Assembly: GCA_012744475.1 (NCBI GenBank)
Contig: JAAYBV010000100.1
Span: 1 to 64,000 of the forward strand
Length of the DNA stretch: 64,000 nt
From: Phycisphaerae bacterium
Lineage (GTDB): Bacteria > Planctomycetota > Phycisphaerae > Sedimentisphaerales > Anaerobacaceae
Reading direction: 5' to 3'
Below are positions 9,426-31,972 of this stretch, piece by piece. Each line of letters begins with the position of its first letter. The stretch's first letter is position 1. A program made the translations under genes and the position numbers. A model generated the notes under the pieces. That model saw only the letters and a list, made by a program, of their open reading frames with translations. It made no database searches and had not been told where the DNA came from.

Positions 9426-9641
9426 TACCTGCTTGCGCTTGAGGCGGCCACCCAGCCTTGTCCCGATGTTCATCGGGATCACTACAAACCGATCCGACAT
9501 CATACCACGAAACCGCCGTCACACCAGCCCCTATCCGCAAAATGACACCGCTTGGCGCTCCGGCGGGATGGGGATATATTCGCCCATGTTCACAGTGAAC
9601 CATTGACGGGACATGGCGCACCGACCGGAAAGGTGGACGAG

Positions 9642-18840: not shown

Positions 18841-19150
18841 AGCCATTCTCCTTGGTGACTCCGAAAAACGCCATTATGGACCGGATCGCCCGAAAGGGCA
18901 AGGAAGATGCCCGACACGGGTGGCAGCCTCAAACGCCTTGGCGTTTGGGAATGGCTCGACACCTTGAGATTTCTCCTGCCATCTATGCCACAGAGAGGTC
19001 CGCCATCCCCAAGCTTCGCTTGAGGCTGCCACCCAGTTCCACACATTGGACGCGTGCTTGACGCCTCTCGAAGGCCCGATACAATGCGCCGATGTCGTGC
19101 GTTCGCGTTGAGCTGCCAATCGGCACGCAAACAATGAGGAGCGTCCTACC
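18841..19150. other. Gene-free interval carrying an inverted family B repeat pair
   Basis: No gene is supported. Most of the interval is occupied by the inverted repeat pair at 18918-19034. The remainder holds the leader of the secreted propeller-like protein gene at 19151. Confidence 0.6.
18918..19034. repeat. Family B inverted-repeat doublet (REP/MITE-like)
   Basis: The left unit, 18918-18954, starts GGGTGGCAGCCTCAA, contains the perfect hairpin AAACGCC-TT-GGCGTTT and ends GGGAATGG. The right unit, 19003-19034, is an inverted copy from CCATCCCC to GAGGCTGCCACCC. A 48-base spacer separates them. The same two-unit layout, in opposite orientation, occurs at 26913-27025. Confidence 0.75.
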
Positions 19151-26912: not shown

Positions 26913-27025
26913 GGGTGGCAGCCTCAAGCGAAGCTTGGGGATGGCGGGTTTGTCTTGGGCGTGGATAGCGAGGAGTTCCTCTGTCTTCAAACCATCCCCA
27001 AGTCCTGCGGACTTGAGGCTACCAC
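26913..27025. repeat. Family B inverted-repeat doublet, second copy
   Basis: Unit 26913-26944 (GGGTGGCAGCCTCAA to GGGGATGG) and unit 26992-27025 (CCATCCCC to GAGGCTACCA) are inverted around a 47-base spacer. The second unit has an inner AAGTCC-TGC-GGACTT hairpin. Compared with 18918-19034 the whole element is in the opposite orientation. It sits between convergent genes. Confidence 0.75.
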
Positions 27026-29875: not shown

Positions 29876-30036
29876 AGTCCGTGCCGACCCCACAAAACGA
29901 CCACGCCTGTACCGCCCTCTCGTCCCACGCGCCAAGCATGATAACCCGCCCGCCCGTTGCAGGCCAGCCCAATGGACCGTATCCGCGAAATGACGATTGA
30001 TTTCGGACGATTGACTGTCCCGGATACCCGTCGCTC

Positions 30037-30078
30037 TTCGAATCGCCAATCATCAATAATCAATAGTCAATCATCAAC
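30037..30078. repeat. AT-rich direct-repeat cluster upstream of lnt (family C-like)
   Basis: Repeated ATCAATAATCAATAGTCAAT-type words occur in a short AT-rich block, similar in character to 13768-13853. It lies in the 273-base divergent interval between the aldolase and lnt. No other gene is seen there except a possible 17-codon leader ORF. Confidence 0.5.
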
Positions 30079-30098
30079 TCCAAAGATAGAATGTCTCC

Positions 30099-30152
30099 AT
30101 GATTGAACTGCGAAATCGAACCCTGAGCAACGACGGCGGCGATCTACGATGA
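30099..30152 (+). CDS. Possible 17-codon leader ORF overlapping the lnt start
   Basis: ATG 30099 opens MIELRNRTLSNDGGDLR and stops at TGA 30150-30152, which overlaps the lnt ATG as ATGA. The lnt start has only a weak ribosome site of its own, so coupling is plausible. The ribosome site of the leader ORF is itself weak. Treat as speculative. Confidence 0.3.
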   Translation: MIELRNRTLSNDGGDLR

Positions 30153-31972
30153 CCAGGAAGCTATTGTCTCTGGCCGTTCCGCTCGCCGCCTCGGCGGCGC
30201 TGCTGAGTATGATTCAGGCGCCCGTCGACTGGTCGTTCCTGGCGTGGGCGGCGATGGTTCCGTTCGCCCTGGCGTGCCGGCCGGAGGTGCAACCACGGAC
30301 GCTGGCGCTCGTGGCCATGCTCGTCGGCACGATCTACTGGCTGGCGAATATCTATTGGATCGCGCCGATCACCGTTGCCGGCTGGCTGGCGATGGGCATC
30401 TACCTAGCCGTGCTCTGGCCCCTGCTGGCCCTGGCGATCCGCTTCTGCCGTGCCCGGAATATCCCAATGGCGCTGGCGTTGCCCATTCTGGTGGTCGGCG
30501 CCGAACGGCTCCAGGGCTTTCCGCTGGGCGGCTTCTTCTGGCGTCTATTGGGGCACAGCCAGCACGCGAACATCACACTGATCCAGATCGCCGACCTCTT
30601 TGGCGTCGCGGGCGTCTCGTTTCTGGTCGCGGTGGTCAACGGCGTCCTGGCGGACTGGGTCATGTGGTGGATAGCAGGCGGGTGGCAGCCTCAAGCACAG
30701 CTTGGGGATGGTTTGTCGAACACACCATCACTGAAGGACGCAGGGCAACCACGGGGGGTTGCCCCTACACGCACGCTCATCGTGACGACGGCAAGCGTCA
30801 TTGCCATGATGGTCGCGGCGTGGTTGTACGGGCACTGGCGCATCGGGCAGGCCGCCGAAGCTGTCACGGACGGTCCGCTGGTGGCGGCGCTTCAGTCGAA
30901 CGTGCCCCAGTCGGTCAAGATCAGCCACGCGGCCAGCGATGAGCTGTTCGCGGAGCTGCTGGAGATGAGCCGAGCGGCCGCGGCGGCCGGCGCCGAGCTG
31001 ATCGCCTCGCCCGAGACGATGGTCCAGGCCTACCTCCAGCCGGAGCTTTGGCGTTACTTCGAAGACCCCAACGAGGACAGGGCCTTCCATGAAGCCCTGA
31101 TCGCCCACGCGACCGACACCGCCTATCTGCTCGTCGGCGCCTACGGCGGCGAGATCATGAAGGACCCCCAAGGCAAGCTTTACATAGGCCAGTACAACGC
31201 GGCCTATCTTTATCGGCCCGACGGGACGAAGGACCCGAACCGCTACGACAAGATTCACCTGGTCCTGTTCGGCGAGTACATCCCCTTCCGGCGGAGCTTC
31301 AACTGGCTCTACCAGCAGCTCAAACGCTTCGCGCCCGAGGAGTACAACTACGACTACTCGCTCGAACACGGCAGACACTACACCGTCTATGAAATGACCA
31401 CGCCGGTTCGCGGCACAGAGCCGAACGTCGCATCGCAGACGTCCGAATCGACGTATCGCTTCGGCACCATCATCTGTTATGAGGACGCAATCCCTTACGT
31501 CGCCCGGAATTTCACCCTCGACGACAAGGGCCGAAAACGCGTCGACTGGCTCGTGAATATCAGCAACGACGGCTGGTTCGTCCGCTTTCTGGACGCGCCG
31601 CCCCGCGTGGTCCCAAGCACCGAACTGCCCCAACACGCCGCGATTTGCGTGTTTCGAGCGGTGGAAAACCGTCTGCCCGTGCTGCGCAGCGTCAACACGG
31701 GCATCAGTTGCCTGATCGACTCTTCCGGCCGCATCCGCAATGCCCCAATCGCATCGAGCGAGGGATTCCCTCCGGAGGCGATGCGAAGAACCGGTTTGTC
31801 CGGATGGTTCCTCGAAAAAATGCCGATAGACAGCAGGGTGACGTTCTACAGCCGTCACGGCCAGTGGTTGGACACCGGCTGTGCGGTCGCGTTCGTCACG
31901 GTCCTGATCGTACCGGCCGTGATCGGCCTGGCGCGACGCAGGGCCCGAAAGCCGGCGAAGAAGCCGGCCTGA
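30149..31972 (+). CDS. lnt: Apolipoprotein N-acyltransferase, with an in-frame palindromic-repeat insertion
   Basis: This 607-residue inner-membrane enzyme N-acylates the diacylglyceryl-cysteine of lipoproteins. The N-terminal half has hydrophobic helices with NIYWIAPITVAGWLAMG and the LGG..W motif (FPLGGFFWRLLGHSQH). The C-terminal nitrilase domain has the catalytic triad: E289 (ASPETM), K368 (YDKIHLVLFGEYIPF) and C443 (IICYED). Residues about 178-208 (GGWQPQAQLGDG to QPRGVAPTR) are encoded by intergenic-type repeat DNA (30680-30770) inserted between two membrane helices without breaking the frame. The protein is about 80-90 residues longer than common homologs. A HEAT lipoprotein gene follows. 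Confidence 0.93.
   Translation: MTRKLLSLAVPLAASAALLSMIQAPVDWSFLAWAAMVPFALACRPEVQPRTLALVAMLVGTIYWLANIYWIAPITVAGWLAMGIYLAVLWPLLALAIRFCRARNIPMALALPILVVGAERLQGFPLGGFFWRLLGHSQHANITLIQIADLFGVAGVSFLVAVVNGVLADWVMWWIAGGWQPQAQLGDGLSNTPSLKDAGQPRGVAPTRTLIVTTASVIAMMVAAWLYGHWRIGQAAEAVTDGPLVAALQSNVPQSVKISHAASDELFAELLEMSRAAAAAGAELIASPETMVQAYLQPELWRYFEDPNEDRAFHEALIAHATDTAYLLVGAYGGEIMKDPQGKLYIGQYNAAYLYRPDGTKDPNRYDKIHLVLFGEYIPFRRSFNWLYQQLKRFAPEEYNYDYSLEHGRHYTVYEMTTPVRGTEPNVASQTSESTYRFGTIICYEDAIPYVARNFTLDDKGRKRVDWLVNISNDGWFVRFLDAPPRVVPSTELPQHAAICVFRAVENRLPVLRSVNTGISCLIDSSGRIRNAPIASSEGFPPEAMRRTGLSGWFLEKMPIDSRVTFYSRHGQWLDTGCAVAFVTVLIVPAVIGLARRRARKPAKKPA
30680..30770. repeat. Family B half-unit plus GGGCAACC/GGTTGCCC hairpin inside lnt
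   Basis: The left part (GGGTGGCAGCCTCAAGC to TTGGGGATGG) is a family B unit matching 26913-26944. The right part has a hairpin at 30743-30764 (GGGCAACC with GGTTGCCC) followed by CCTAC, similar to other intergenic palindromes. The whole is in frame with lnt. Confidence 0.8.

Follow-up and report, generated by a model that had tools for sequence, protein, structure and literature searches.

In-frame palindromic repeats are already known from Rickettsia and several other bacteria, among them Opitutus, which shares the superphylum of the Planctomycetota. Rickettsia RPEs (Ogata et al. 2000, 2002, as reviewed in PMC10969869 and PMC3733652) are described as short mobile palindromes that sit in frame within genes of unrelated function, where the protein fold can accommodate them. 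Further cited sections report that REP monomers and dimers tagged with GTAG or CGTC are read through in ORFs, including those of the PVC bacterium Opitutus terrae, and that GTAG REPs often supply a TAG stop (PMC3733652). The same sections report genes with intragenic REPs for single species and mention no recurrent hits to one loop across a family. REPIN/RAYT systems are characterized by inverted pairs of REP units (PMC3116915, PMC8049555, PMC8266576). None of the papers searched reports palindromes in lnt, and that a single loop should repeatedly exchange unrelated repeats seems to be new.

The window, by which we mean the whole 64,000-nucleotide stretch of Phycisphaerae DNA analysed, contains an lnt gene that encodes two palindromes as protein (Table 1). 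Its product matches the Pfam families LNT_N (7.8e-30) and CN_hydrolase (3.8e-18), and an lnt match is present in 39 of 41 related genomes; by analogy with other bacteria, we assume the gene to be essential in the source organism. The palindromes are two adjacent elements that belong to different REP families. The first, GGGTGGCAGCCTCAAGCACAGCTTGGGGATGG in full and GGGTGGCAGCCTCAAGC-ACA-GCTTGGGGATGG by parts, is read as GWQPQAQLGDG at residues 178–188. The second, GGGCAACCACGGGGGGTTGCCCCTAC with arms GGGCAACC/GGTTGCCC, is read as GQPRGVAPT at residues 199–207. A preliminary description had assigned residues 178–208 to just such a pair of repeats and had stated that the frame was kept; both palindromes lie where it placed them, and the lnt ORF runs unbroken through both domains. 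It is highly probable that a family B unit and a GTAG-type REP landed in a permissive inter-helix linker that repeatedly absorbs repeats, most likely neutrally.

Table 1. Positions in the window of lnt, its palindromes and the family B copies used for comparison.
Feature	Position	Strand	Description	Match or source
lnt, apolipoprotein N-acyltransferase	30149..31972	+	607 codons plus stop, uninterrupted	ORF list
Family B REP-like unit	30680..30711	+	foot GGTGGCAG, stem CCTCAAGC/GCTTGGGG, tail ATGG	94% match to 26913-26944
Spacer between both palindromes	30712..30742	+	31 nt	
GTAG-type REP hairpin	30743..30768	-	GTAGGGGCAACCCCCCGTGGTTGCCC on minus strand	2 genome copies; identical 25-mers in G005, G007
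Second length-variable Lnt loop	31382..31456	+	residues 412-436	
Family B inverted pair, comparator	18919..19033	.		
Family B unit and start of inverted partner, comparator	26913..27001	.		best in-window DNA match to lnt unit

The insert in lnt is best classed as an RPE-like element rather than a REPIN. It sits in frame in an otherwise conserved gene and is missing from orthologues, and on the evidence of sequence it is a protein-coding palindromic element whose presence in the mature protein is putative. A REPIN comprises two inverted units of one family; the window lnt pairs a family B unit with a GTAG unit, and inverted units of one family do occur in relatives L002–L004, L084–L087 and L101. 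No eroded inverted family B partner was found behind the lnt unit, as alignment to the partner halves of other copies scored at or below shuffles.

The catalytic triad, previously described as intact, is so in its own three residues. Glu289, Lys368 and Cys443, which correspond to the triad of E. coli Lnt, are all present. Two residues before Glu289, however, residue 287 is Ser (TCG, window 31007–31009), at a position occupied by Trp in 77 of the 78 sequences aligned; this is either a real substitution or a sequencing error. With the unique Trp287Ser, this copy of Lnt may be impaired. Upstream of the gene, at window 29984–30095, lies an AT-rich stretch with ATTGAT/AATCATCAAT-like repeats.

Family B is a dispersed repeat of the source genome and of its bacterial family. 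The pattern GGTGGCAGCCTCAA-n-TTGGGGATG has 76 exact copies in the 5.75 Mb source genome and none in a reversed-pattern control, which rules out chance. Within the bacterial family, 39 of 89 genomes contain it: G014 has 61 copies and three congeneric species have 15–24 each, whereas it is absent from some others. Units are 30–49 nt long with variable complementary stems, short many-copy palindromes as REPs are, and 36 of the 55 with enough downstream sequence are followed within 140 nt by an inverted partner, in most cases 46 nt on. Because GCAG adjoins the stem in place of a GTAG or CGTC end tag, we call the family REP-like and not a GTAG/CGTC REP.

A sister form of family B accompanies a transposase gene. 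On both sides of ORF L253:1614-2213, the single Y1-transposase (RAYT-like) match in the source genome, stands GGTGGCAGCGGCAAGC-n-GCTTGCCGATGG, which has the family B foot and tail with the stem triplets alone changed (CGG/CCG). No exact-type family B unit touches this gene. Bracketing of a RAYT-like gene by a near-identical form, together with the inverted pairs, gives family B its resemblance to a REP. The bracketed region spans L253:1491-2250 (G000:C22), and one inverted pair in L172 mixes family B with its CGG/CCG-stem sister form. Many contigs of the source assembly, G000, end near a near-identical family B form with a AAAGCGTAGTGCAACGGAGCTTT stem (C8, C10, C12, C19, C24, C30, C50, C55, C85, C86, C91, C103, C104, C112 and C117); recent family B copies seem to break the assembly.

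Could an assembly or binning error have joined a repeat into lnt? Family B pairs break this assembly, many contigs ending inside near-identical copies, and metagenome assemblies make up most of the set to which the source genome belongs. Yet the unit in lnt is single and diverged, its ACA loop unique among the listed copies, and is not a recent identical one. Neither of the two palindromes closes the frame, and the sequence on either side matches the same relatives; from the four-sequence DNA alignment we drew on the rows of the window, L248 and L249. Many other assemblies also have comparable inserts of independent occurrence. We regard an artefact as very unlikely indeed.

The second palindrome has the features of a GTAG-type REP. 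On the minus strand it bears a GTAG tag beside the stem-loop (GTAGGGGCAACC...GGTTGCCC), and it has dispersed copies. The GGGCAACC hairpin is rare in the source genome, with two copies including that in lnt, and has copies in six of nine genomes; further GTAGGGG hairpins lie in the window at 9428 and 14892. Both repeats had been described as otherwise intergenic. For the hairpin this has a thin basis in the source genome, where the one other copy gives a TAG stop to an upstream open frame, but its dispersal holds up in related genomes.

For family B the intergenic description fails in part, as about eight of 69 units lie in frame in genes. We judged coding context on stretches around the copies, examining 69 of the 76 units; we did not accept as genes the open frames that cross many of the other units, since this G+C-rich genome has numerous antisense and spurious frames. 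Besides lnt, the hosts are a sulfatase, the tail of a ParA-like protein, an ABC-2 permease, a zf-HC2/DUF4139 protein and endonuclease V. Weaker cases are a nucleoside-hydrolase-like protein below the Pfam cut-off and one protein without a Pfam match. Like RPEs, then, family B is read in frame in several unrelated genes, and its captures outside lnt sit at linkers, termini or a beta-hairpin turn. In endonuclease V (L192:1533-2318, G000:C47), an in-frame family B insertion of 27 residues separates strands of the catalytic domain, so that a stretch of 4 residues in the Thermotoga enzyme (2w35) is 31 residues long here. In the sulfatase (L158:295-1875, G000:C3), the unit is read as GGSLNPGAPGLGM and lies after the N-terminal signal region and before the domain.

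In Lnt, the insert lies in a linker between two predicted helices, one ending near residue 176 and the other starting near residue 206. Query residues 81–179 align to chain residues 98–194 of the solved Lnt 5vrh, in keeping with the earlier placement of the insertion between membrane helices. A weak AlphaFold model (six sequences) gave coil between two helices at a mean pLDDT of 38, too poor to place the loop. The linker would face the cytoplasm if, as we presume, the topology of E. coli Lnt applies.

Lnt relatives differ widely at this linker. We aligned Lnt across the bacterial family, whose genomes are mostly metagenome assemblies, and measured the segment from query residue 164 to 232 in 76 usable sequences. 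The segment has 43 residues in 36 of them, 44 in four and at least 48 in 30; in the window it has 69, an excess of about 26 residues over the usual 43 of insert-free relatives. Long linkers differ from one another in sequence, length and frame. Species with lengthened linkers have a median genome of about 5.8 Mb versus 3.4 Mb (p 0.0003, kinship ignored).

Several kinds of repeat fill these longer linkers. The closest relatives, G001, G004 and G005 (76–81% identity), carry a head-to-head GTAGGGTGTGC pair, with 20–44 matches to that repeat in their genomes. Five species of one other genus (G091, G092, G094, G096 and G097) carry GTAGGGTGGG pairs, with 33–383 genome matches. In the G014 linker, family B comes with nested hairpins and is read in a different frame (GGSLK, not GWQPQ). 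An ATTTCAG repeat occupies the G062 linker (27 genome matches, up to 3 mismatches allowed), and CTCGAT repeats those of G099 and G101 (16 and 52 overlapping genome matches). Rarer are a CTTCGCTGAAGC repeat in G079, with four genome matches, two of them inside lnt, and weakly supported CCTGAGCG repeats in G018 and G041, with two to three matches including lnt. Several other longer linkers, those of L005, L083 and L096 among them, could not be assigned to a repeat.

These comparisons bear out the reading of a mobile palindrome turned protein-coding, since a dispersed repeat is in frame and most relatives have no such segment. At residues 178–208, where the preliminary description had proposed aligning close relatives, the three closest carry different sequence. 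Their segment is an inverted pair of another REP family, rather than conserved protein with no match to repeats. As far as sequence comparison can tell, the uptake of repeats by the Lnt linker is recurrent across the bacterial family and not a one-off. On an Lnt tree from which both variable loops were left out, parsimony requires at least nine changes of insert type and at least six of presence, when limited to types whose copies were counted in the host genome. Higher counts of 19 type and nine presence changes had taken in unmatched inserts as well and were set aside.

A second loop of Lnt is variable too. Among 566 gaps between well-filled columns, the slot at query residues 419–431 and the linker are the two with the most long insertions. 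No repeat was identified in this loop in the window. In relatives, G021 (L010) has a family B unit there read as AAWQPQAKLGDGAA, and G091 (L101) has GQPQGVAPT, the GGGCAACC hairpin as in the window.

Recurrence at one linker raises the question of whether the site is chosen by the mobile element. Were the linker the sequence-specific target of a RAYT transposase, it would be a true insertion hotspot. GTAG REPs do lie in the linker in two genera, each with RAYT genes, and the RAYT genes of G001 and G004 are flanked by GTAGGGTGTGC REPs as in their linkers. In-species replacement is possible as well, because the window groups with L002 (98) inside the species carrying the GTAGGGTGTGC pair. However, a clade of L002–L004 without the window is not rejected (p 0.40), and replacement of the relatives' pair in the window lineage is thus possible but not forced by the data. 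Moreover, unrelated repeat types with no known RAYT link occupy the same loop, and the second loop is used too. In this comparison, which covers Lnt alone, inserts of several unrelated types favour a permissive loop over the target site of one transposase, and we consider a RAYT target quite improbable. That the linker is a true capture-and-exchange site, with REPs replaced by a specific process such as RAYT targeting or repeat recombination, we hold to be unlikely.

The inserts might instead be kept for a function, their mRNA hairpins slowing translation between membrane helices or the peptide itself being useful. Repeated use of the site and strong folding of the inserted DNA, along with the near-perfect inverted pairs kept in several species, would fit such a role. 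On the other hand, 40 of 76 relatives, with segments of 43–44 residues, do without an insert; its sequence, length and frame vary between lineages; and some inserts are AT-rich or tandem-like repeats and not palindromic pairs. We give a functional role little credence, and neutral tolerance of the insert is likeliest.

Uptake by a permissive linker would follow from repeat mobility and loss. RAYT-type single-strand transposition, or repeat mobility of a related kind, would insert or copy REP-like elements at many places in these genomes. Within genes, most insertions would break the frame or the fold and be lost, and a few in surface loops and linkers would stay where the frame is open. The Lnt linker may accept almost any peptide with an open frame, so that repeats would accumulate and be exchanged there. 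In-frame REP capture is usually seen as isolated cases in single genomes; the Lnt loop can be compared across about 76 species, in a series that includes sites with no insert, repeats of several unrelated families and more than one reading frame. This series lets the birth and turnover of protein sequence from non-coding repeats be dated and tested.

The Lnt inserts combine features of several known systems. As in REPIN/RAYT systems, RAYT-like genes are flanked by matching REPs in G001 and G004, and by the sister form of family B in the source genome; unlike in a classic REPIN, the lnt units of the window come from different families. The 30743–30768 hairpin and the GTAGGG units of relatives bear the GTAG tag, whereas family B has GCAG beside the stem, and the second copy of the hairpin in the source genome supplies a TAG stop as GTAG REPs often do. 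RPEs are alike in their in-frame insertion into unrelated genes, tolerated where the fold allows. The host here belongs to the Planctomycetota and the elements are REP units of 26–32 nt (pairs elsewhere); that of the window adds a new case of the same kind. What sets Lnt apart from the RPEs is that a single loop of the protein is filled by different repeat families depending on the species.
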